The notes beneath the pieces were generated by a model. It was not told the origin of the DNA and made no database searches. It saw only the letters and a list, made by a program, of their open reading frames with translations. DNA of 32,309 nt from Oryzomicrobium sp. (lineage in GTDB: Bacteria; Pseudomonadota; Gammaproteobacteria; Burkholderiales; Rhodocyclaceae): NCBI RefSeq assembly GCF_021287045.1, contig NZ_JAJTBG010000022.1:1-32309 (forward strand). The letters are read 5' to 3'. The position numbers and the translations under genes are program-made. Shown one piece after another: positions 8,349-23,500 of the stretch (positions are counted from its first letter, which is position 1; each line of letters opens with the position of its first letter).

Positions 8349-10022
8349 ATGAGTCAAATCATCGAAGTGAAGGTCCCGGATATCGGCGACTTCAAGGACG
8401 TGCCGGTCATCGAGCTGTTCGTCAAACCCGGCGACAGCGTCAACGCCGAGGACGCCCTGATCAGCCTGGAATCCGACAAGGCCACCATGGACGTCCCCTC
8501 CCCCGCCGCCGGCGTGGTCAAGGAGATCAAGATCAAGGTCGGCGACAAGGTCAGCGAAGGCAGCCTGGTGCTGCTGCTGGAAGCCAGCGCAACGGCCAGC
8601 ACGGCCGCCGCGCCTGCGCCCGCAGCGGCGCCGGCTCCGGTCCAGGCTCCTACCCCCGTGGCCGCCGCTCCGGCCTCGGCGCCTGCCGCCGCCCCCGCCA
8701 CCGCGGGCGGCCTGGTGGACGTGAAGGTGCCGGACATCGGCGACTTCAAGGACGTGCCGATCATCGAGGTGTTCGTCAAACCTGGCGACACCGTAAAGGC
8801 CGAGGACCCACTGATCAGCCTGGAATCCGACAAGGCCTCCATGGACGTGCCCGCCCCCGCCGCCGGCGTGGTCAAGGAACTGAAGGTCAAGTTCGGCGAC
8901 AAGGTCAGCGAAGGCACCCTGATCCTGGTGCTGGAAGCGGCGGGAAGCGCCGCCCCGGCCGCTGCTGCGGCGCCGGCGCCTGCCCCGAGCACGGCCCCGG
9001 CAACCGCGCCGGTCGCGCCCAGCGCCCCGGTGGCAGCCGCCCCTGCCCCCAGCCTGGCCGCCCCCTTGCCCGCCCTGGGCGGCAAGGTACACGCCAGCCC
9101 GTCGGTGCGCGCCTTCGCGCGGGAGCTGGGGGTGGACCTGACCAAGGTCGCCGCCAGCGGCCCCAAGGGCCGCATCCTGACCGAGGACGTGAAGGCCTTC
9201 ATCAAGGGTGTCATGAACACCGGCGCCGTGCCCGGTGCGGCCACCGCAGCCGGCGGCGGCATCACCGGTGGCGGAACCCTGGACCTGCTGCCCTGGCCCA
9301 AGGTGGACTTCGCCAAGTTCGGCCCCATCGAAACCCAGCCCCTGTCGCGCATCAAGAAGATTTCCGGCGCCAACCTGGCACGCAACTGGGTGATGATCCC
9401 GGCCGTGACCTACCACGAGGATGCCGACATCACCGACCTGGAAGCCTTCCGCGTCGCCCTCAACAAGGAGAACGAGAAGGCCGGCCTCAAGCTGACCATG
9501 CTCGCCTTCATCATCAAGGCCTGCGTCAAGGCACTGCAGCAGTTCCCGCAGCTGAACAGTTCCCTGGACGGCCAGGGTGATGAGCAGCGCCTGGTGCTGA
9601 AGCAGTACTACCACATCGGTTTTGCTGCCGACACGCCCAACGGGCTGGTGGTGCCGGTGCTTAAGGACGCCGACAAGAAGGGCATCTTCGAGATCGCCAA
9701 GGAAACCGGCGAACTGGCCAAGGCCGCCCGGGACGGCAAGCTCAAGCCCGCCGACATGCAGGGCGCCAGCTTCACCATCTCGTCGGTGGGCGGCATCGGC
9801 GGCACGGCGTTCAGCCCCATCGTCAATGCGCCGGAAGTGGCCATCCTGGGCGTTTCCAAGAGCACCATGAAGCCGGTGTGGAACGGCAAGGAATTCGTGC
9901 CGCGGCTGATCGTGCCCCTGTCCTTGTCCGCCGACCACCGCGTCATCGACGGCGCCCTGGCGACCCGCTTCAACGCCGAACTGGCCAAGCTGCTGGCGGA
10001 CTTCCGCCGGGTCATGCTGTAA
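8349..10022 (+). CDS. aceF: Pyruvate dehydrogenase E2, dihydrolipoyllysine acetyltransferase, two lipoyl domains
   Basis: Forms the core of the PDH complex and transfers acetyl groups from lipoamide to CoA. The 557 residues are, in order: lipoyl domain 1 (about 1-78, lipoylated Lys44 in ESDKATMD), an Ala/Pro linker, lipoyl domain 2 (about 120-196, Lys162 in ESDKASMD), another Ala/Pro linker, a peripheral-subunit-binding domain (about 247-285, [13 protein letters not shown]), and the catalytic acyltransferase domain (about 330-557) with the DHRVIDG active site (His530, Asp534). Both linkers are typical flexible swinging arms. The gene is flanked by aceE (15 bp) and lpdA (10 bp) in one operon. 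Confidence 0.98.
8367..8585 (+). repeat. Lipoyl-domain coding repeat, copy 1 (aceF)
   Basis: Encodes the first lipoyl domain of AceF. It is nearly identical in DNA as well as protein to copies at 8721-8939 and 10051-10269; for example the stretch coding GDFKDVP is shared by all three. Confidence 0.85.
8721..8939 (+). repeat. Lipoyl-domain coding repeat, copy 2 (aceF)
   Basis: Second lipoyl domain of AceF. It differs from copy 1 by scattered, mostly conservative changes (KASMD in place of KATMD around the lipoylated lysine). Confidence 0.85.
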
Positions 10023-10032
10023 GGGGGACGCC

Positions 10033-11817
10033 ATGAGCCAACTGGTTGAAGTAAAGGTCCCGGACATCGGCGACTTCAAGGACGTGCCCGTCATCGAGGT
10101 GTTCGTCAAACCCGGCGATACGATCAAGGCCGAGGACGCCCTGGTCAGCCTGGAATCCGACAAGGCCACCATGGACGTGCCCTCCTCGGCCGCCGGCGTG
10201 GTCAAGGAGGTCAAGGTCAAGGTCGGCGACAAGGTCAGCGAAGGCAGCCTGATCCTGGTGCTGGAAGCCAGCGCTGCCGTGGCGGCGCCTGCGCCGACGG
10301 CGGCAGCACCGGCCCCGGCGCCCGCCGCCCCGGCCGCTCCTGCAGCCGCCCCCCAGGCCGCCGGCGCCTACAGCGGCCCGGTGGACGTGGAGTGCGACAT
10401 GCTGGTGCTGGGCGCCGGCCCGGGGGGCTATTCCGCCGCCTTCCGCGCCGCCGACCTGGGGCAAAAGACCGTCATCGTCGAGCGCTACGCCACCCTGGGC
10501 GGCGTCTGCCTCAACGTCGGCTGCATCCCCTCCAAGGCCCTACTGCACGTCACTGCGGTGATGGACGAGACCGCCCATTTCGCCGACCTGGGCGTGACCT
10601 ACGGGGCGCCCCGGGTGGACATCGACAAGCTGCGCGCCCACAAGGCCAAGGTGGTGGGCAAGCTCACCGGCGGCCTGGCCGGCATGGCCAAGGCGCGGAA
10701 GGTGGACGTGGTACGCGGCTACGGCAGCTTCATCGACGCCCACCACGTCGAGGTGGAAGTCACCGACGGGACCGGCCAGGACAAGACCGGCGCCAAGCAG
10801 GTGTTGCGCTTCAAGCAGTGCATCATCGCCGCCGGCAGCGCCGCGGTGCACCTGCCCTTCATCCCCCGCGACCCGCGCATCGTCGATTCCACCGGCGCCC
10901 TGGAACTGCGTTTCGTGCCCGAGAAGATGCTGGTCATCGGCGGCGGCATCATCGGCCTGGAAATGGCCACGGTCTATTCCACCCTGGGCGCCCGCGTCGA
11001 TGTGGTGGAAATGCTCGACGGCCTGATGCAGGGCCCGGACCGGGACGCGGTCAAGGTCTGGGAAAAGCAGAACCTGCACCGCTTCGACCAGGTCATGCTC
11101 AAGACCAAGACCGTGGCGGTGGACGCCAAGGACGACGGCCTGTGGGTGACCTTCGAAGGCGACAAGGCCCCCGCCGGGCCGCAGCGCTACGACCTGATCC
11201 TGCAAGCCGCCGGGCGCAGCCCCAACGGCAAGAAGATCGGAGCCGAAAAGGCCGGCGTGATCGTCGGCGAGCGCGGCTTCATCCCGGTGGATGCCCAGAT
11301 GCGCACCAACGTGCCGCACATCTTCGCCATCGGCGACATCGTCGGCAACCCGATGCTGGCCCACAAGGCTGTGCATGAAGCCCACGTGGCCGCCGAGGCC
11401 GCCGCCGGGCAGAAGGTCGCCTTCGACGCCCAGGTCATCCCCGGGGTGGCCTACACCCACCCGGAAGTGGCCTGGGTCGGCGTCGGTGAGGACGAGGCCA
11501 AGCAGGCCGGGCGCAAGGTCGAAGTGGCCAAGTTCCCCTGGGCCGCCTCCGGCCGGGCCATCGCCAACGGCGCCGACTACGGCTTCACCAAGCTGGTGTT
11601 CGACGCCGAGTCGCACCGGGTGATCGGCGGCACCATCGTCGGCCCCTCCGCCGGCGACATGATCGGCGAGGTGGCCCTGGCCATCGAGATGGGCTGCGAC
11701 GCGGTGGATATCGGCAAGACCATCCACCCGCACCCGACCCTGGGCGAATCCATCGGCATGGCCGCCGAAGTCGCCCACGGCTCGTGCACCGACCTGCCGC
11801 CGATGAAGAAGCGCTGA
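10033..11817 (+). CDS. lpdA: Dihydrolipoyl dehydrogenase (PDH E3) with N-terminal lipoyl domain
   Basis: Reoxidises dihydrolipoamide with NAD+ in the PDH complex. The 594 residues carry an extra N-terminal lipoyl domain (about 1-78, Lys44) and an Ala/Pro linker (about 80-112) ahead of the ~475-residue flavoenzyme. The flavoenzyme has the FAD motif GAGPGG (127-132), the redox-active Cys159-x4-Cys164 pair (GGVCLNVGC), a second GGGIIG NAD motif, and the C-terminal HPHPTLGE with catalytic His567-Glu572. The fused lipoyl domain is typical of PDH-dedicated E3 in betaproteobacteria and Neisseria. The ATG at 10033 follows AAGGGGG, 10 bp after aceF. A terminator follows at 11859. Confidence 0.98.
10051..10269 (+). 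repeat. Lipoyl-domain coding repeat, copy 3 (lpdA)
   Basis: Lipoyl domain fused to E3. It retains the ESDKATMD lipoylation site and is as similar to the two aceF copies as they are to each other. Confidence 0.85.
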
Positions 11818-11899: not shown

Positions 11900-11964
11900 G
11901 CCAACTATTTCACGAAATGGCGAACCCGACGGAAGAGGCACGGTCATTTTCGTACCGACTTTGC

Positions 11965-11970
11965 AATAAT
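11965..11970 (+). promoter_or_regulatory. Candidate -10 just upstream of the PilZ-like gene
   Basis: AATAAT ends 6 nt before the ATG at 11977 and no Shine-Dalgarno is present. If it is used, the transcript would begin at or next to the start codon (leaderless or nearly so). No good -35 is visible. Confidence 0.35.
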
Positions 11971-11976
11971 CCGCCA

Positions 11977-13680
11977 ATGTTGAAGCACTTCGTCTCCCGC
12001 CTCCGCGGCGAGCGCAGCGACCACCCGCTGGGCACCGCGGACAACCTGGCCGCTGTCATCGCCGACCTTACCGGCAAGCGCCCCACCCACGCGCTGATGG
12101 CCCTGCGCGGCTGGCTGGCCGACGCCGCCCCCCTGGTCGGGCAACTGCCGCGTGAGGCCTGCCAGCGCGCCATCCTGCGCTTGGACGAGGCGGCCCAGCC
12201 CTGGCTCGCCGCCCTGTGGGACGATGCCGCCCGCCAGTTGCACACCCTGGACCCCCAGGCCGAGATCACCCTGAAGGCCCTGGAGTCCTACTACCACACC
12301 GCCGCCCGGGCCCTGGAAGTGGCCCTCAACCTGCAAGAGGCCCTGTCGCCCCAGCAGCCCAAGGCCCTGACCGTGATCCTGGCGCGCATGCTGCGCGCCC
12401 TGTCCCGGGAAAAGCTGGCGGCCCGCATCTGCTTCCAGGACCTGCCGGGCGAATGGTGGCCCGCCGCCCACGCCCTGATGGAAAAGGCCCGCGCCCTGGG
12501 CGCCCTGCACCTGCGCGAGATCCTTTACCCCGGCGACCCCGGCGACACCTCCCCCTGGCGCGAATACCGCATCGGCCTGTTCTACGAGCTGGGCCCCCTG
12601 GGCAACCTGTCGCCGCGCCAGATGATCCTGCTCGACCGCATCGTCGCCTGGGCCGAGCCCCACTTCACCCTGGCCGACACCCCGGCCGCCGGCACGCCCT
12701 GGCGCCTGCGCACCGACGGCCTGCGCGGCCCCGAGCGGATGATCGAATCCCCCACGGCGGAACAGGCCGCCGAGCCAGGCTGGCGCTACCTGGGGCCGGG
12801 CCGGGTGAGCATGCTGCTGTTCCCCCTCAAGAGCGACGTGGTGCGCCAGCAGACCGTGCCGGACTGGCTGTCCGTCCCGCCCGAGAACGACAGGGAGGCG
12901 GCGGCCCTGCTGCAACGCCTGATGCAGCACTGGTCCCAGACCCCGCCCAAGCGCCGCCACGCCCGCAAGGACGCCCAGAGCGCCCTGCGGGTGGTGCCCG
13001 GTTTCGACCTGGCGCGCCGCATGGTGGCCGCCGGCGAATACGCCCGTTCCGGCCGCCAGCTCGAATACGCCGCCGCCAGCCAGCAGGCCATGCGCCAGGC
13101 CTTCGCCCTGCCCACCCCCACCGGCGAGACGCTGACGCCCGAGGAGGTCCTGGCCAGCCTGGAAACCGCCGGCGACCGGCAGATGATGGAACGCTGGGAA
13201 CTGCGCGACATCAGCATGTCGGGCCTGGGCGCCCGCCCCCCGGTGAAGCGCCAGTGGCAGGCCATCGGCGCCCTGGTGGGCCTTCGCACCGACCAGTCCC
13301 TGCATTGGCGGCTGGCCCTCATCCGCCGCCTGACCCGCAGCCACGGCCGCTACAACGCCGGCCTGGCTCTCCTACCCGGAGAGCCCCGCTGCGCCCTGCT
13401 CGAAGCCATCAAGCGCCCCGACGACCCCTGGGCGGCCGAGACCGGCGGACTGCGCGGCACGGTGGACGCCCTGCTGGTGGACGATAAGGCCGGTCACCTG
13501 CTCGCCCCCCTGGGCACCTTCGGCCCCGGCGGACTGCGCTACACCCTGGTTTCCGGCGGCACCCGCCAGCCGGTGGTTCTCCAGCACCTGCTGGAGAGCG
13601 GCCCGGATTACGAACTGATCGCCTACACCGTCGGCGCCGAGGGCAGCGATCCCGCCGCCCCGGCCACCTCCGCGGCGTAG
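11977..13680 (+). CDS. Conserved-type protein with PilZ-like motif (function unknown)
   Basis: I do not recognise the full-length family. The 567-residue product (ATG at 11977, MLKHFVSRLRG) has no signal peptide or membrane segment. Its N-terminal half is helical and Leu/Ala-rich. Near the C-terminus WELRDISMSGLGA (about 405-417) resembles the D-x-S-x-x-G half of a PilZ c-di-GMP-binding domain, followed by a GALVGLR...RLALIRRL segment as in PilZ strands. The usual upstream RxxxR is not obvious. An in-frame start 20 codons upstream exists, but its extension looks noncoding and overlaps the promoter-like AATAAT (11965-11970). No Shine-Dalgarno precedes the chosen ATG. Its 3' end overlaps the convergent glycosyltransferase gene by 58 bp. 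Role in c-di-GMP signalling is inference. Confidence 0.7.
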   Translation: MLKHFVSRLRGERSDHPLGTADNLAAVIADLTGKRPTHALMALRGWLADAAPLVGQLPREACQRAILRLDEAAQPWLAALWDDAARQLHTLDPQAEITLKALESYYHTAARALEVALNLQEALSPQQPKALTVILARMLRALSREKLAARICFQDLPGEWWPAAHALMEKARALGALHLREILYPGDPGDTSPWREYRIGLFYELGPLGNLSPRQMILLDRIVAWAEPHFTLADTPAAGTPWRLRTDGLRGPERMIESPTAEQAAEPGWRYLGPGRVSMLLFPLKSDVVRQQTVPDWLSVPPENDREAAALLQRLMQHWSQTPPKRRHARKDAQSALRVVPGFDLARRMVAAGEYARSGRQLEYAAASQQAMRQAFALPTPTGETLTPEEVLASLETAGDRQMMERWELRDISMSGLGARPPVKRQWQAIGALVGLRTDQSLHWRLALIRRLTRSHGRYNAGLALLPGEPRCALLEAIKRPDDPWAAETGGLRGTVDALLVDDKAGHLLAPLGTFGPGGLRYTLVSGGTRQPVVLQHLLESGPDYELIAYTVGAEGSDPAAPATSAA

Positions 13681-14858
13681 GGCTGCGGCCCGTCGCCCGC
13701 GCTGACGGCGCGCAGCACCGCCTCGAAATCCCCCACCACCTGTTCCCAGGCGCAGGCCAGGGCCCGCTCCCGGGCAGCCCGGCCGAGCCGGGGCCGGCCC
13801 GCGTCGTCCAGGGCCAGCGCCACGGCGGCGGCGGCGAAGGCGTCCTCATCCCCCGGGCTGACCGTCAGCCCCTGCACCCCGTCGGCGATCAGCTCGGCGG
13901 CGGCGGCGCTGCGGTAGGCCACGGTCGGCACGCCGCTGGCCAGGGCTTCCAGGGTTACGTTGCCGAAGGTCTCGGTCAGGCTGGGGAAGAGGAACAGGTC
14001 GCCGGAGGCATAGTGGGCCGCCAGGTCCTCGCCGATGCGCACCCCGGCGAAGCGGTGTTCGGGATGGCGTTCCTCCAGGCCGCGCCGCAGCGGCCCGTCC
14101 CCCACCAGCACCAGCCGGGCGTCGGGCCGCCGGGCGCGGATGGCGGCGAAAGCCTTGAGGGTCAGGGGCAGGTTCTTTTCTGCCGCCAGCCGCCCCACCG
14201 ACAGCACCGCCAGCCCGCCCTCACCGACGCCCCAGGCGGCGCGCAGCCCGTCGTCGCGGCGCGCCGGGTCGAACAGGGAGGTATCCACGCCGCGCCCCAC
14301 CACCTTCACCCCGGGGATGCCCTCCCCGGCCAGGTCCGCCGCCAGGGCCATGGTCGGCGCCAGGGTGGCCCGGGTGCGGCGGTGGAAGGTGCGCAGGTAG
14401 GCGGCCACCGCCGGGCGCAGAAAGCCCATGCCGTAGTGGACGCTGTAGCGGTCGAAGTTGGTGTGGAACCCCGAGGTGGCGGGAATGCCCAGACGCCGCG
14501 CCGCCCCCAGGGCAGACCAGCCCAGGGGCCCCTCGGTCACCAGGTGCACCACGTCGGGCCGCTCGTGGCGCCATTCCCGCAGCAGGCGGGACTTGGCCGG
14601 CAGGCCGAAGCGCAGCCCCGGATAGCCGGGCAGGGGCAGCCCGGCCACGGTGCGGTCCGCCGGGGCGCTAGCGCCCCCGGCCCCGACATCCCCGTCGCCG
14701 GGCTGGCGCGGGCGGATCACCGTGACCAGGTGGCCCCGCGCGCGCAGGCCTTGCACCAGCCGCCCCACCGTCATGGCCACACCGTTCACTTCCGGAGGAT
14801 AGGTTTCGGTCACCACTGCCACTTTCAGGGGCGGGACCGGGACGGCGGATGCGTTCAT
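13623..14858 (-). CDS. GT4 glycosyltransferase, MgtA/SqdX-like
   Basis: Probable retaining glycosyltransferase of GT-B fold that uses a nucleotide sugar, with a lipid acceptor inferred from context. The 411 residues show the N-terminal TETYPPEVNGVAMTVG acceptor-domain start (17-32), the FHTNFDRYSVHYG block (131-143) typical of MgtA/SqdX-type enzymes, SVGRLAAEKN (220-229) and the donor-site E-x7-E (Glu296, Glu304). The ATG at 14858 has a strong AGGAGGT with 7-nt spacing. It is the last gene of the minus-strand operon, 75 bp beyond dgkA, and its end overlaps the convergent PilZ-like gene by 58 bp. Sugar and acceptor cannot be read from sequence. Confidence 0.88.
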   Translation of the reverse strand: MNASAVPVPPLKVAVVTETYPPEVNGVAMTVGRLVQGLRARGHLVTVIRPRQPGDGDVGAGGASAPADRTVAGLPLPGYPGLRFGLPAKSRLLREWRHERPDVVHLVTEGPLGWSALGAARRLGIPATSGFHTNFDRYSVHYGMGFLRPAVAAYLRTFHRRTRATLAPTMALAADLAGEGIPGVKVVGRGVDTSLFDPARRDDGLRAAWGVGEGGLAVLSVGRLAAEKNLPLTLKAFAAIRARRPDARLVLVGDGPLRRGLEERHPEHRFAGVRIGEDLAAHYASGDLFLFPSLTETFGNVTLEALASGVPTVAYRSAAAAELIADGVQGLTVSPGDEDAFAAAAVALALDDAGRPRLGRAARERALACAWEQVVGDFEAVLRAVSAGDGPQPYAAEVAGAAGSLPSAPTV

Positions 14859-14933
14859 GGCATGACCTCCTACGGGGTTGCACTCAACGGGGAAAGGAAG
14901 GGGCCGCGGAAGGAGCAGAGCTGCCCCTCCGCA

Positions 14934-15314
14934 TCACAACAGCACGCAGCCCCACACCAGGGCCACGTTGATCAGCGCGATCAGCACCGCCGCGCTGCCG
15001 ATGTCCTTGGCCCGCTTGGCCAGCCGGTGGTGCTCCAGGGAGACTCGGTCCACCGCCGCCTCCACCGCCGAGTTGAGCAGTTCCACCACCAGCACCAGCA
15101 AGATGCTGCCCACCATCAGGGCCCGCTCCACCCCGGCGACGGGCAGGAAGAAGGCCAGGGGCACCAGCACCAGGGCCAGCCAGACTTCCTGGCGGAAGGC
15201 GTCCTCGCAGGCGTAGGCGGCGCGCAGGCCGGCCAGGGAATAGTTGAGGGCGTTCCAGACCCGGGTCAGGCCGGTCTTGCCCTTGAAGGGGCTTTCGTCG
15301 TGGGGAGCGTTCAT
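14934..15314 (-). CDS. dgkA: Diacylglycerol kinase
   Basis: Integral inner-membrane kinase that phosphorylates diacylglycerol to phosphatidic acid with ATP. The 126 residues have three hydrophobic segments (about 44-60, 65-82, 107-126). The family signature ELLNSAVEAAVDR (78-90) carries the catalytic and metal-binding acidic residues. The start is set at the ATG at 15314; a TTG two codons upstream is possible. It lies 12 bp beyond a glycosyltransferase and downstream of a PlcP-type phospholipase gene. This suggests that it recycles diacylglycerol released during lipid turnover instead of, or besides, the usual membrane-derived-oligosaccharide role. Confidence 0.96.
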   Translation of the reverse strand: MNAPHDESPFKGKTGLTRVWNALNYSLAGLRAAYACEDAFRQEVWLALVLVPLAFFLPVAGVERALMVGSILLVLVVELLNSAVEAAVDRVSLEHHRLAKRAKDIGSAAVLIALINVALVWGCVLL

Positions 15315-15326
15315 GGGCAAAAGGGG

Positions 15327-16616
15327 TCAGCCCCGGGCCTCTGGCCGGGGGATCAGGAGGGCGGGACGGGGATCGACGACACAGCGGGCGTGATAACGCT
15401 CGGCCAAGCGGGCGGCCAGGGCCTGGTCGGACCAGCCGGCGGCGCTGCCCCGGGCTTCCCGCTCCAGGCGGAGACGGGCGTGGGGATCCTGGTGCAGGCC
15501 GCCCAGCAGGTCGGCCAGGTGCAGGGCGAAATCGGCCACCTCGGCCCGGGGCACCACGCAGCCCGGCATGGGGCAGCCGTCGCGGTCGAGCAGGATGTCG
15601 CGAGTGCCCATCTCGGCCAGGGCCACCACCGGCAGCCCGGCGGCCAGGGCTTCGAGCAGCACCAGCCCCTGGGTCTCGGTGTGGGAGGCGAAGGCGAAGA
15701 CGTCCGCCGCCGCGTAGCAGTCGGGCAGGGCCCGCTCCCGCTCCAGGTAGCCGAGGAAGCGCACCGAGTCGCCCAGGCCCAGGCTGGCGGCATGGCGTTC
15801 CAGGGCCGGGCGGGCCGGGCCCTCGCCGGTAACCAGCAGCAGCAGGTCGGGCAGGTGGCGGCGCGCCAGGGCGTGGGCTTCGAGCAAAAAGGCGATGTTC
15901 TTCTCGAAGGCCACCCGGCCGACGAAGAGGGCCACGGGCCGGTCCGGCGCAATGCCGTGGGCCAGGCGGAAGCGCTGCCGCGCCGCGGCCCGGGTCCCGG
16001 TGTCGGTGCAGTCGAAGCGGGCCATGGGGATGCCGGTGGGCAGCACGGTGAGGGGCGTCGTCACGCCGTAGTCCGACAGGCGCTCGGCCATGGCCCGGCT
16101 GGGTACCACCACTTCGTCCACCCCGTTGCACTGGTGGCGCGACAGGCGCCTGGCCAGGCCGCGCAGCAGGGCGCCGGGGAGGAAGGGGGCGTAGTGGTGC
16201 AGGTATTCCTCGAAGAAGGTGTGATAGGTGGCAAGCACCGGCACGCCCCGCCGCCGGGCCTCGGCCACCCCGGCGTAGTGGGCCAGGAACGGGGTCTGGA
16301 CGTGGATCAGGTCGGCCCCCTCGGCGGCCTCGGCCACGGCGCGGCCCAGCTTGCGCCAGGCCATCAGCCGGTCCTCCGGGTCCCGAGGCACCGGCCGGCC
16401 CGGGACGCGCCACAGGGCATCGTCGGCGTCGTCGGAGGCACCGTAGGCGGGCGCCACCAGGCGCACCGTCACCCCCAGGTCGGCCAGGGTACGGCGAAAG
16501 GTTTCGATGGAGGTGGAAACGCCGTTGATACGCGGGAAATAGACGTCGGAAACCATCAGCACCGTCAGGGGGCGAGACAACGACGGCGGCGACGCGGGAT
16601 GGGGCGTCATGGGCAT
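15327..16616 (-). CDS. GT4 glycosyltransferase, candidate diacylglycerol glycosyltransferase (Agt-like)
   Basis: The 429-residue GT-B enzyme has VSDVYFPRINGVSTSI (22-37) at the N-terminal acceptor domain, the YHTFFEEYLHHY block (131-142), FVGRVAFEKN (231-240), LVTGEGP and the donor-site E-x7-E (Glu314, Glu322; TETQGLVLLEAL). This pattern is shared with 1,2-diacylglycerol 3-glucosyltransferases and with the Agt enzymes that accompany PlcP. The start ATG at 16616 overlaps the plcP-like stop codon (TGATG), so the two are translationally coupled. A longer open frame reaching 17450 is only a shadow of the upstream gene. The diacylglycerol acceptor is inferred from the neighbourhood and the sugar donor is unknown. 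Confidence 0.87.
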   Translation of the reverse strand: MPMTPHPASPPSLSRPLTVLMVSDVYFPRINGVSTSIETFRRTLADLGVTVRLVAPAYGASDDADDALWRVPGRPVPRDPEDRLMAWRKLGRAVAEAAEGADLIHVQTPFLAHYAGVAEARRRGVPVLATYHTFFEEYLHHYAPFLPGALLRGLARRLSRHQCNGVDEVVVPSRAMAERLSDYGVTTPLTVLPTGIPMARFDCTDTGTRAAARQRFRLAHGIAPDRPVALFVGRVAFEKNIAFLLEAHALARRHLPDLLLLVTGEGPARPALERHAASLGLGDSVRFLGYLERERALPDCYAAADVFAFASHTETQGLVLLEALAAGLPVVALAEMGTRDILLDRDGCPMPGCVVPRAEVADFALHLADLLGGLHQDPHARLRLEREARGSAAGWSDQALAARLAERYHARCVVDPRPALLIPRPEARG

Positions 16617-17503
16617 CAGGAGGCGCCCTCCGGGGAAGAAGGATAGAGAGGATGGGGGCTTCCGCCGTTGCCGACCTCGGACTCGCCACGCAGGGCGGCC
16701 GGTGCGGGCAGGGGCAAGGGCGTTTCGGGCGCCGGCAGAGCAGCGGGGGCGTCGGCGTCGTGCAGGAACGGCGAGCCCCAGGACACCAGTTCCAGGCGGC
16801 CGTCGAAGTGCTCGACGATGGCGGTGCACGAGTCGACCCAGTCGCCGCAATTGACGTAGGTGAGGCCGTCCACCTGCTTGATGGCCGCCCAGTGGATGTG
16901 GCCGCAGATCACCCCGTCCATGCCCCGGGCCCGGGCATGGCGGATCACCGCGTCCTCGAAGTCGAAGATGAACTGTAGGGCGCTCTTCACCTTGCGCTTG
17001 GCGTAGCCGGCCAGGGACCAGTAGCCCGGCCGGCCGAGGCGCCGGCGCACCCAGGAGAGCCAGCCGTTGAGGCGCACCAGGGCGTTGTAGGCCACGTCGC
17101 CGACCACGGCCACCCAACGGTGGTAGCGGGTCACCTGGTCGAACTCGTCGCCGTGCACCAGCAGAAAGCGGCGTCCATCGGCGGTTTCGTGGACCCACTC
17201 GGACTCGACCCGGATGTCGCCGAAAGCCACGCCCACGTATTCGCGCAAGGCCTCGTCGTGGTTGCCGGGGACGAACACCACCTGCTCGCCGTGGCGGGCC
17301 CGGCGCAGAATCTTCTGCACCACCGTGTTCTGGGCCGCCGACCAGGCGATCGAGCGCCCCATGGCCCAGAAATCGATGATGTCGCCGACCAGATAGAGAT
17401 GGTCGGCGGGGGTTTCCTTGAGAAAGTCGAGGAGCCGTTCCGCCTGGCACGCCCGGGTGCCCAGGTGGACGTCGGAGATGAAGATCGAACGCACCTTTGC
17501 CAT
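16616..17503 (-). CDS. PlcP-type metallophosphoesterase (phospholipase C-like)
   Basis: Calcineurin-like phosphoesterase of 295 residues with all five metal motifs: D11-x-H13, G40-D-x-x-D44, G80-N-H-D83, H117-G-D and G201-H-I-H204. Databases often label such proteins UDP-2,3-diacylglucosamine diphosphatase. However, the length and the [20 protein letters not shown] and [12 protein letters not shown] blocks fit the PlcP family, which removes the head group from phosphatidylethanolamine or phosphatidylcholine during phosphate starvation to give diacylglycerol (shown in Sinorhizobium and marine bacteria). The ATG at 17503 is chosen because family similarity begins there. No Shine-Dalgarno is evident. 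A PhoB-type box array lies 22-62 bp upstream. The last ~45 residues are Pro/Ala-rich and unconserved. Confidence 0.85.
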
Positions 17504-17525: not shown

Positions 17526-17565
17526 ATGACCGGGCCGTGGCACTGCCGTGACAGCGCCGTGACAC
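17526..17565 (-). promoter_or_regulatory. Tandem PhoB box (four half-sites) upstream of the plcP-like operon
   Basis: On the minus strand four 7-mers occur with an exact 11-bp period: GTGTCAC (17565-17559), CTGTCAC (17554-17548), GTGCCAC (17543-17537) and CGGTCAT (17532-17526). The E. coli Pho box is two CTGTCAT/C direct repeats with 4-bp spacing. The array ends 22 bp before the start codon at 17503 and points toward it. The -10 is not clear (a weak CACCCT lies 10 nt after the last half-site). Confidence 0.78.
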
Positions 17566-17645: not shown

Positions 17646-18323
17646 ATGAACCAGGACGAACTGAAACGCGCCGTTGGTCAGGCCGCCGCCGACTACGTGG
17701 TGGCCCACGCTCCCCAAGGCGCGGTGCTGGGCGTGGGGACCGGCTCCACCGCCAACTGTTTCATCGACGCCATCGCCCCGTTCAAGGAGCGCTTCCGCGG
17801 CGCCGTGTCCAGCTCCGAAGCCTCCACCGACCGGCTGCGCAGCCATGGCTTCGCCATCCTCGACCTGAACGACGTGAGCGAGATTCCCGTCTACGTGGAC
17901 GGCGCCGACGAGGTGAACGACCGCCTGCATATGGTCAAGGGCGGCGGCGGCGCCCTGACCCGGGAGAAGATCGTGGCCGCAGTGGCCGACACCTTCGTCT
18001 GCATCGCCGACGCCTCCAAACTGGTGCCGACCCTGGGCGCCTTCCCCCTGCCGGTGGAGGTGATCCCCATGGCCTGCGCCCACGTGGCCCGGGAACTGGC
18101 CAAGCTGGGCGGCGACCCGCACCTGCGCAAGGGTTTCATCACCGACAACGGCAACCTGATCCTGGATGTGCGCGGCCTGTCCATCGACGATCCGGTGGCC
18201 CTGGAGGCCCACATCAACCAGATCGTCGGCGTGGTGTGCAACGGCCTGTTTGCCGCCCGGGGCGCCGATCTGTTGCTGCTCGGCACCCCCGACGGGGTGC
18301 GGCAGTTGCACCCGAAATCCTGA
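17646..18323 (+). CDS. rpiA: Ribose-5-phosphate isomerase A
   Basis: Interconverts ribose 5-phosphate and ribulose 5-phosphate in the pentose phosphate pathway, and in the Calvin cycle that the prk gene at 29934 implies. The 225 residues contain GVGTGSTA (29-36), [10 protein letters not shown] (56-64), VDGADEV (84-90) and [11 protein letters not shown] (98-108) with the catalytic Glu107. The ATG at 17646 has AGGAGA 7 nt upstream. It is transcribed divergently from the plcP-like operon and followed by an intrinsic terminator at 18406. Confidence 0.97.
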
Positions 18324-18454: not shown

Positions 18455-19156
18455 ATGCTCGAACACACCTCCAAGCAATTCGATCTGGAACTGGAAAGCC
18501 TGCGCACCCGGGTGCTGCAAATGGGCGGACTGGTTGAACAGCAATTCCGTCTGGCCATGGAAGGCCTCTACTCCGGCGAAATCGCCGACCTGGAGCGGGT
18601 CATCGTCGGCGACGCCCGGGTCAATCAGCTGGAGGTCGAACTAGACGAGGCCTGCACCCAGGTGATCGCCAAGCGCCAGCCCACCGCCATCGACCTGCGC
18701 ATGATCACCACCGTGATCAAGACCATCGCCGACCTGGAGCGCATCGGCGGCAAGGCCCAGAAGATCGCCAAGCTCGGCGTCCGTCTGTACGACCAGCACG
18801 CCTCCTTCGCCCCGGAAGTGGAGCTGCGCCACACCGCCGACCTGGCCCTGACCATGCTGCGCGCCGCCCTGGACGCCTTCGCCCGCCTCGACGCCGCCGC
18901 CGCCGCCGACGTGGTCTACAAGGACGAGCAGGTGGACATGGAACACAACGCCATCACCCGCCAGCTCATCACCTTCATGATGGAAGACCCCCGCACCATC
19001 TCCCAGTCCCTCGACATCATGGCCATCGCCAAGGCGGTGGAGCGGGTCGGCGACCACGCCAAGAACATCGCCGAATACGTGATCTACATGGTCAAGGGCC
19101 GCAACGTGCGCCACGTTCCGCCCGAAGAACTGGACCGGGAAATCAACGAGCATTGA
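18455..19156 (+). CDS. phoU: Phosphate transport/signalling regulator PhoU
   Basis: Negative regulator that links the Pst phosphate transporter to the PhoR-PhoB two-component system. The 233 residues form the usual two three-helix repeats. Metal-cluster motifs are E-x-x-x-D-type, with DLERIGGKAQKIAK (about 92-105) in the first repeat and KAVERVGDHAKNIAEY (about 193-208) in the second. The ATG at 18455 has only a weak purine-rich AGAGAG before it. No pst or phoBR genes adjoin it here. It lies 1 kb from the candidate PhoB-regulated lipid operon. Confidence 0.97.
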   Translation: MLEHTSKQFDLELESLRTRVLQMGGLVEQQFRLAMEGLYSGEIADLERVIVGDARVNQLEVELDEACTQVIAKRQPTAIDLRMITTVIKTIADLERIGGKAQKIAKLGVRLYDQHASFAPEVELRHTADLALTMLRAALDAFARLDAAAAADVVYKDEQVDMEHNAITRQLITFMMEDPRTISQSLDIMAIAKAVERVGDHAKNIAEYVIYMVKGRNVRHVPPEELDREINEH

Positions 19157-22003: not shown

Positions 22004-23500
22004 TCAGACCGCGTCCCCATCCAAGGCCGCTTCCAGCTGCCGGACCACCGTCTTCAGCACCTTGATGCGGGCGAAGTACTTGTCCTCGGCCTCCACCAGG
22101 GTCCAGGGCGCCACCTCGGTGGAGGTGCGGTCCACCATCTGGCACACGGCAGTCTCGTAGTCGCTCCACTTCTCCCGGTTGCGCCAGTCCTCGTCGGTGA
22201 TCTTGAAGCGCTTGAAGCGGGTTTCCTCCCGCTCCTTGAAGCGGCGGTACTGCTCGTCCTTGGAAATGGCCAGCCAGAACTTCACCACCACCGCGCCATG
22301 GCGCACCAACTGGTCCTCGAAATCGTTGATCTCGCTGTAGGCGCGCATCCAGTCGGCCTCGCTGCAAAAGCGCTCGACCCGCTCCACCAGCACCCGGCCG
22401 TACCAGGAACGGTCGAAGACGGTGACCCGGCCATGGCCCGGCACGTGGCGCCAGAAGCGCCACAGGTAGGGCTGATCCCGCTCTTCCTCGGAAGGGGCGC
22501 CGATCGGCACCACCCGGTAGCTGCGGGCATCCAGGGCACCGGTGACACGGCGGATGGCGCCGCCCTTGCCGGCGGCATCGTTGCCCTCGAACACCAGCAC
22601 CAGGGAACGCTTGGCGAAGCGCTCGTCGCGCACCAGCTGGTTGAGCCGCCCCTGCCAGCGGGCCAGCTCGCTGGCGTAGGACTTTTTCTTGCTGAGGCGC
22701 TGCTCCAGGTCCAGGGCGGACAGCACGTTCACGCCCGTGCCGGCCACGGGCTGGAAGGGAGCCGCGGCGATGCGCTGGGTGGCGTCCGGCATGGCCAGGC
22801 GACGGTGGATCGCCGAGGCCAGGATGCGCCCCACGGACAGGGCGCGGTAGCGCGGGTCGAAACCGTCTACCACCACCCAGGGGGCGTAGGCGGTGCTGGT
22901 GCGGCGCAGCACGTACTCGGCCATGCGGTGGTAGCGCTCGTAATTCTCGAAGCGCCACCAGTCCTGGTCGGTGATGCGCCAGGCGGTCTTGGGGTCCTTG
23001 GAGAGAGTCTTGAGGCGCCGTTCCTGCTCGTCCCGGGAGAGGTGGAACCAGAGCTTGAGGATCAGGGCGCCTTCGTCCGCGAGCATCTTCTCGAAGCGCA
23101 GGATGCGCTCCAGGTGGTGGGCGGCGGCGGCCCGCTTCATGTCCTTGCGCACCCAGCCGGTGATCGGCTCGGCGTACCAGTTGCCGAAGAACACGCCGAC
23201 CCGCCCCTTGCCCGGCAGGGCTCGCCAGTAGCGCCACATGGGCGGGCGCTGGCGTTCCTCGTCGCTGGGATCGCCGAAACCCTCGGTGCGGATGTGGCGC
23301 GGGTCCATCCAGGCGTTGAGCAGGTTCACCGTCTCGCCCTTGCCCGCCCCGTCCAGGCCGTTGACCAGGATCAGCACCGGAAAGCGCCGGGCGGCCAGCA
23401 GGTCGTACTGCAGGTCGAGCAGGTCGGCGCGCAGCTGGGGCACCTCGGCATCGTAGGTGGCCTTGTCGACGCGCTGGCCCAGTTCGGCGGATTCGAACAT
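22004..23500 (-). CDS. pap: Polyphosphate:AMP phosphotransferase (two-domain PPK2)
   Basis: Transfers phosphate from polyphosphate to AMP, giving ADP. The 498 residues are two tandem PPK2 domains. The C-terminal domain (about 270-498) has an intact Walker A (G306-N-D-A-A-G-K312-G) and Walker B/lid start (F362-D-R-S-W-Y). The N-terminal domain (about 1-240) keeps a Walker A (G48-L-D-G-A-G-K54-G), but the Walker B Asp-Arg-Ser is replaced by Phe-Gly-Asn (105-107). This suggests a structural role, as known for class II PPK2. The ATG at 23500 is preceded by GGGAGG. It is a single gene between argA and rsmE. Confidence 0.94.
   Translation of the reverse strand: MFESAELGQRVDKATYDAEVPQLRADLLDLQYDLLAARRFPVLILVNGLDGAGKGETVNLLNAWMDPRHIRTEGFGDPSDEERQRPPMWRYWRALPGKGRVGVFFGNWYAEPITGWVRKDMKRAAAAHHLERILRFEKMLADEGALILKLWFHLSRDEQERRLKTLSKDPKTAWRITDQDWWRFENYERYHRMAEYVLRRTSTAYAPWVVVDGFDPRYRALSVGRILASAIHRRLAMPDATQRIAAAPFQPVAGTGVNVLSALDLEQRLSKKKSYASELARWQGRLNQLVRDERFAKRSLVLVFEGNDAAGKGGAIRRVTGALDARSYRVVPIGAPSEEERDQPYLWRFWRHVPGHGRVTVFDRSWYGRVLVERVERFCSEADWMRAYSEINDFEDQLVRHGAVVVKFWLAISKDEQYRRFKEREETRFKRFKITDEDWRNREKWSDYETAVCQMVDRTSTEVAPWTLVEAEDKYFARIKVLKTVVRQLEAALDGDAV

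Follow-up and report, generated by a model that had tools for sequence, protein, structure and literature searches.

In the four papers drawn on here (PMC8528852, PMC4796936, PMC8231724 and PMC9239053), membrane lipid remodelling by PlcP is established for alpha-proteobacteria, for Pseudomonas and for methanotrophs. The remodelling set of Pseudomonas aeruginosa comprises PA3219, PA3218 and PA0842, with one glycosyltransferase leading to glucosyl-diacylglycerol and the other to glucuronosyl-diacylglycerol (PMC8528852). In the systems of marine heterotrophs and SAR11, plcP precedes agt or a related gene (PMC4796936, PMC8231724); plcP also lies upstream of several other glycosyltransferases, of types 3 and 5, one of which is tied to di- and triglycosyl-diacylglycerol (PMC4796936). 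Methanotrophs carry a plcP-agt operon; among those of type Ia there are some that have another putative diacylglycerol (DAG) glycosyltransferase, called the Bacillus type, instead of agt (PMC9239053). We describe here a related gene cluster from Oryzomicrobium sp. (family Rhodocyclaceae), found in the window, that is, the whole stretch of 32,309 nucleotides (nt) of contig NZ_JAJTBG010000022.1 that was analysed. On the minus strand of the window, four genes follow one another in tandem (13623-17503): a plcP-like metallophosphoesterase gene, a gene for a family 4 glycosyltransferase (GT4), here GTa, the DAG kinase gene dgkA, and a second GT4 gene, here GTb.

The likeness to the P. aeruginosa PlcP-Agt1/Agt2 system consists of a PlcP-family enzyme, two GT4 enzymes and Pho boxes in the promoter. 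In P. aeruginosa, however, agt2 stands apart from plcP-agt1 (PMC8528852), whereas both glycosyltransferase genes of the window belong to the plcP run; this run also contains dgkA and, with no canonical Agt found here, has GTa at that position. With the marine and SAR11 systems the cluster shares a plcP gene before a GT4 gene, a Pho box and the link to DAG (PMC4796936, PMC8231724), and with the methanotroph operon a PlcP adjoined by a DAG glycosyltransferase (PMC9239053). The term "diacylglycerol kinase" has no occurrence in the main text of PMC8528852 or in PMC9239053, and no such term appears in PMC4796936. The sequence-only reading of this DNA knew of no account of DgkA as a built-in member of such an operon, and we likewise found none of DgkA in a PlcP-glycosyltransferase cassette, nor any of lipid remodelling in this bacterial group, in the open-licence literature, supplements excluded. 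In the one paper found to mention both plcP and dgkA, the latter is listed in a gene table and the former is treated in a different part of the text.

The four genes probably constitute a PhoB-controlled membrane lipid remodelling cassette. In the mechanism we infer from the gene families and the promoter, PhoB would bind upstream of plcP, and under phosphate starvation PlcP would strip the phosphorylated head group off a glycerophospholipid to leave DAG. GTa and GTb would each join a UDP-sugar to DAG, the product of GTa probably being a neutral glucosyl-DAG and that of GTb probably an acidic glucuronosyl-DAG, and DgkA would turn unused DAG back into phosphatidate, which would keep the DAG pool low and the exchange reversible. 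The gene run itself, including a TGATG overlap in which the stop codon of plcP and the start codon of GTa have one base in common, is as the sequence-only reading had reported it, and translations and Pfam agree on the products: Metallophos/Metallophos_2, GT4 domains, DAGK_prokar and again GT4 domains, all above curated cut-offs. Between GTa and dgkA lie 12 nt; GTb is preceded by AGGAGG and begins after a gap of 75 nt from dgkA.

The same families recur together in relatives. PlcP proteins were first assigned by identity rank to class 1, which includes the window protein, or to the Agt-linked class 2, and the tree described below agrees with this assignment. The survey covered 61 genomes (the window genome and 60 relatives), after removal of three plcP fragments, of plcP rows in the LpxH range and of eleven weak dgkA matches that scored no more than 42.5 bits. 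Class-1 plcP was found in 25 genomes, GTa in 24, dgkA in 50 and GTb in 28; the window's own family, sampled with 37 genomes, accounts for 24 of those with class-1 plcP. At a neighbourhood threshold of 8 kb, plcP lies near GTa in 18 of the 21 genomes having both, near GTb in 18/23 and near dgkA in 14/25; GTa lies near dgkA in 15/24 and near GTb in 18/21, and dgkA near GTb in 21/28. Class-1 loci came in two sets, 25 from the relatives' genomes and 21 from named records, which overlap at least at one Sulfuricella contig region (L085 = L047). All four families stand together in 11 of the former and 8 of the latter (locus L060 stops short of its own GTa, which sits just outside). Gaps between neighbouring cassette matches are mostly short (67 of 83 under 130 nt), and at least seven gene orders are seen. 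The clustering in the 61 genomes and the gene orders of the loci rule out a chance neighbourhood; the number of orders also rules out one universal operon order. DgkA, which had been proposed as an operon member, is thus a recurrent member of the cassette. The cluster is present, complete or in part, in records of Dechloromonas, Azonexaceae, Azovibrio, Rugosibacter and Sulfuritalea, among others; Aromatoleum toluclasticum has GTb and plcP only, and class-1 plcP also occurs under the names Gallionella, Gallionellaceae and Sulfuricella. Many of these records are metagenome assemblies.

Control by phosphate is suggested by tandem repeats before plcP, four 7-mers (GTGTCAC, CTGTCAC, GTGCCAC and CGGTCAT) separated by GGCG, GGCA and GGCC. 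Three tandem repeats score 18 out of 21, where the maximum over 30 simulated windows was 16. The exact pattern TGTCAYNNNNCTGTCA has five sites in the 3.9 Mb genome, among them the one before plcP and one about 60 nt before the likely start of phoB (phoB-phoR); of eleven further sites, each with a single mismatch, one stands some 85 nt upstream of pstS. With one mismatch or none, the genome has 16 matches, versus 3 for the reversed control. The plcP promoter pattern is thus common to phoB and pstS of the same genome, which lends substance to the link with phosphate starvation drawn by the sequence-only reading and makes PhoB the predicted regulator. In relatives, a Pho-box score of at least 11 of 14 within 250 nt upstream of plcP is reached at 12/24 class-1 loci (random stretches, 1.9%), many of the class-1 sites lying near -60, and at 28/73 class-2 loci (random, 2.5%). 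The reversed pattern reaches that score in 2/24 class-1 loci of relatives and 0/21 of the named records, and three permuted patterns in 0, 0 and 0 of 24, 0, 0 and 0 of 21, and 2, 5 and 4 of 73. Two relatives place cassette genes close to phosphate transport genes: in G030 GTa-dgkA is directly divergent from pstS, and in G060 GTa lies about 1.4 kb from pstB.

Several results pull the other way. Counted within the window by itself with three mismatches allowed, the pattern shows no excess (5 found versus 5.8 expected); this evidence being weak, testing was extended to the whole genome, to relatives and to reversed and permuted versions. Three of the five exact TGTCAYNNNNCTGTCA sites have no evident phosphate gene alongside (judged by eye), and no convincing -10 element was seen. 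Of the 21 named-record class-1 loci just 3 reach a Pho-box score of at least 11 (random, 2.2%), and in several of these 21 loci another gene comes before plcP; stretches upstream of a leading GTa are mostly unremarkable; and at class-2 loci the reversed pattern reaches 11 in 8 of 73, versus 28 for the true pattern. On the side of the kinase, 11 of the 25 genomes with class-1 plcP have no dgkA within 8 kb of it. Salvage of excess DAG would be the putative role of DgkA; dgkA-GTb pairs also stand apart from plcP, near prmA, tpx or pfkB-family genes (G021, G029, G050 and G058), and a further pair is found in G059, a genome with no plcP. The cassette dgkA is moreover the sole copy found in eight relatives (G002, G003, G014, G024 and G032-G035), so that it must serve housekeeping there too.

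These isolated pairs and sole copies also speak for DgkA being a housekeeping kinase, already paired with GTb and present by chance, with no role in remodelling. We regard this as a real but rather doubtful alternative, since dgkA also stands beside plcP in the company of other partners: it follows plcP-Agt in G057 and G022, and comes directly after plcP in L106 (plcP-dgkA) and L088 (plcP-dgkA-GTa). The window genome and its sister species, moreover, keep the cassette dgkA despite a second dgkA elsewhere (58 and 56% identical to it), and in three relatives (G059, G021 and G029) the dgkA-GTb pair lies beside olsB-like genes of ornithine lipid synthesis, in G059 with an olsA-like gene as well. 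All these proteins score below curated cut-offs (for OlsB, 173 to 192 bits versus 320 to 350). It is possible that these neighbours tie the dgkA-GTb pair to other phosphorus-free lipids within a wider gene unit. The window genome has an OlsB-like protein of its own (on C8), 77% identical to that of G021, and ornithine lipids may therefore be its second phosphorus-free lipid. An older dgkA-GTb pair may have been joined afterwards by GTa and plcP. In G030, which has no plcP, a transposase-like open reading frame separates GTa-dgkA from GTb (L186 3048-9737).

The window DgkA itself is a full-length family member (DAGK_prokar, 120.9 bits, profile positions 1-102 of 102) that aligns over 12-127 (E 1.1e-30) with the solved DgkA 3ze3, the E. 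coli enzyme. The second dgkA of the window genome (L185 near 5052; C5, 257379) stands beside a cation-efflux gene with a heavy-metal-associated domain; it is perhaps part of a metal-resistance island and seems unrelated to the cassette.

In its glycosyltransferases the cassette departs from the sequence-only reading, which had placed it with the established PlcP-Agt pair. The signature of the Pelagibacter enzyme and Agt (the Agt/GTcp clade) is FPSxTDTFG with GRVAxEKN and an Asp in the catalytic dyad (PMC8231724), whereas GTa of the window has FASHTETQG and GTb FPSLTETFG. FPSxTDTFG is present in 47/50 glycosyltransferases of class-2 loci and TETQG in 29/31 GTa; of 33 GTb rows, at least 16 have T/S-ETFG and at least one TDTFG. 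In a tree of 134 glycosyltransferases (rows of 300 aa or less dropped, namely two GTa and two Agt, with a threshold of 280 for extra rows), three groups are separate, each with support 99: Agt with the Agt1-like proteins of Pseudomonas, GTb with the Pseudomonas GTb, and GTa. The outgroup consisted of three rows from gamma-proteobacteria, of which two are placed within the GTa group and one, on a long branch, joins it. At E 1e-40 no canonical Agt was found in the window genome; across the 61 genomes canonical Agt (at least 54% identity) is present in 10 of the 13 with class-2 PlcP and in 0 of the 25 with class-1 PlcP, and none of these genomes has both PlcP classes. The 35-41% matches to the Agt query in class-1 relatives fall at the coordinates of GTb genes. 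The canonical pair is ruled out by the lack of an Agt in the window genome at E 1e-40 and by the placement of both GT4 enzymes outside the Agt clade. GTa and GTb are two other GT4 families, which are predicted to stand in for Agt.

What the two enzymes make is suggested by their nearest relatives. The top NCBIfam model for GTa is alpha-monoglucosyldiacylglycerol synthase (NF049988; 138 bits, cut-off 400) and that for GTb is N-acetylglucosaminyl-phosphatidylglycerol synthase (145 bits, cut-off 480); both scores are below the cut-offs, so membership is established for neither. Of 59 genomes sampled from the larger genus group of P. graminis, 58 have an orthologue of GTb with 48-54% identity; in P. 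graminis itself this gene adjoins a flavin-oxidoreductase-like gene (by eye). PA0842 presumably has a similar neighbour, and on that assumption GTb may be an orthologue of PA0842 (Agt2). We have moderate confidence in the likeliest division of labour, in which GTb would be a glucuronosyl-DAG synthase and GTa a glucosyl-DAG synthase.

Alternatively, the enzymes could act in series, GTa making a mono-glycosyl-DAG to which GTb adds a second sugar; the sequence-only reading had allowed one or two glycosylations, perhaps with a diglycosyl lipid. The two GT4 genes do stand in one run, and within 8 kb on one strand in 17 of the 21 genomes holding both. We nevertheless think action in series unlikely. 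GTb is found in genomes with no GTa match at E 1e-60, among them G029, G047, G048, G058 and G059, and is nearly universal in the P. graminis genus group (no GTa search was made there), and its possible orthologue PA0842 yields glucuronosyl-DAG in E. coli with no other glycosyltransferase from Pseudomonas present (PMC8528852). Two mono-glycosyl lipids are likelier than one diglycosyl lipid, because GTa is nearest to a monoglucosyl-DAG synthase model and GTb shares a clade with the possible Agt2 of Pseudomonas. A third option, that GTb acts on a phospholipid such as phosphatidylglycerol rather than on DAG, so that its step would save no phosphate, draws on its top NCBIfam model. We hold it improbable: the score is far under the cut-off, and GTb genes distant from plcP have Pho-box-like sites of 11 or more upstream in 6/9 beta-proteobacterial and 4/7 Pseudomonas loci (random, 2.5%).

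The metallophosphoesterase belongs to the same superfamily as LpxH (24-32% identical to the 17 LpxH-type proteins taken from relatives), in a different clade and with different motifs. LpxH is its top NCBIfam model (55.7 bits) and provides its closest solved structures by sequence, but that score falls far short of the 190 bits set as curated cut-off, and a separate gene of the LpxH type, whose product has GNRDF and GHTH, is present in the window genome (peptidyl-prolyl isomerase-like genes nearby, by eye). The metallophosphoesterase motifs DxH, GD, GNHDE, HGD and GHIH are all present in the window protein. GNHDE is found in 44/46 class-1, 66/73 class-2 and 5/5 Pseudomonas loci versus 0/17 LpxH-type proteins, and GNRDF in 16/17 LpxH-type proteins versus none in any PlcP set. 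An alignment of 23 rows (the window protein and 22 of 29 fetched relatives; five were left out for in-frame stops, and L025 and L028 without special reason) is invariant at D11, H13, G40-D41, G80-N81-H82-D83-E84, H117-G118-D119 and G201-H202-I203-H204. In a tree of 139 rows, made by a quick method with SH-aLRT support only (three class-1 rows under 200 aa dropped, L137 present twice), a branch with support 100 splits off all 17 LpxH. Another branch, with support 99, sets apart the 73 class-2 and 5 Pseudomonas rows (78 rows); the window PlcP falls outside this set, in its sister group, class 1. Identity to the window PlcP is about 46-62% for the Agt-linked class-2 proteins and 50-53% for four Pseudomonas proteins (L194, L195, L196 and L198), which are counted as PlcP by the Agt-like glycosyltransferase gene directly after them. 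A search of the window genome with a class-2 PlcP query found no second PlcP. The sequences thus support a PlcP-type enzyme, and the competing idea of a second LpxH-type UDP-2,3-diacylglucosamine hydrolase, with the glycosyltransferases in lipopolysaccharide synthesis, is very improbable on its low score, other motifs, tree position and separate genomic copy and was dropped.

Features of the cassette and its surroundings, with olsB-like genes of relatives (window positions unless a locus is named)
Feature	Position	Strand	Remarks
plcP-like metallophosphoesterase, 295 aa	16616..17503	-	translation and Pfam; proposed phospholipase C releasing DAG
GTa, GT4 glycosyltransferase, 429 aa	15327..16616	-	motif FASHTETQGLVLLE; proposed glycosyl-DAG synthase
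dgkA, integral-membrane DAG kinase, 126 aa	14934..15314	-	translation and Pfam
GTb, GT4 glycosyltransferase, 411 aa	13623..14858	-	motif FPSLTETFGNVTLE; proposed glucuronosyl- or glycosyl-DAG synthase
Tandem Pho-box-like repeats, 11-bp period	17526..17565	-	62 to 23 nt upstream of plcP start codon
rpiA	17646..18323	+	divergent neighbour upstream of plcP; context, outside cassette
phoU, phosphate signalling protein	18455..19156	+	context neighbour, beyond rpiA
587-aa protein	11917-13680	+	convergent, downstream; overlaps GTb 3' end by 58 bp
Polyphosphate:AMP phosphotransferase	22004-23500	-	TIGR03708, 744.7 bits versus cut-off 547.65
Dihydrolipoamide acyltransferase	8349-10022	+	two lipoyl domains (by eye)
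Dihydrolipoamide dehydrogenase	10033-11817	+	own lipoyl domain (by eye)
olsB-like genes near dgkA-GTb pair	L187 5244-6759 (with olsA-like), L190 6156-6911, L192 779-1558		

With phoU and a polyphosphate:AMP phosphotransferase gene in one window, the stretch carries several phosphate genes. The 587-aa protein convergent with GTb has no Pfam match at 1e-5 and no NCBIfam match at 1e-20, and among the retrieved relatives' loci a homologue was seen solely in the sister species (L036).

The interpretation offered by the sequence-only reading is, as a whole, partly supported. Beyond it, we tentatively propose, at a little short of an even chance, that the locus represents a second, Agt-independent type of remodelling, widespread in the window's own family and in neighbouring beta-proteobacteria; a PlcP from a clade of its own would feed a pair of glycosyltransferases other than Agt, with the DAG kinase built into the same PhoB-controlled unit. 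Rhodocyclales-type bacteria include denitrifiers, polyphosphate accumulators and pollutant degraders, and surveys that use Agt as the marker would miss their gene set. If the proposal is true, the unit would partition DAG between glycolipid and phosphatidate and allow fast reversal once phosphate returns. The presence of the kinase inside the unit makes the fate of PlcP-released DAG, when glycosylation lags or phosphate returns, directly testable.

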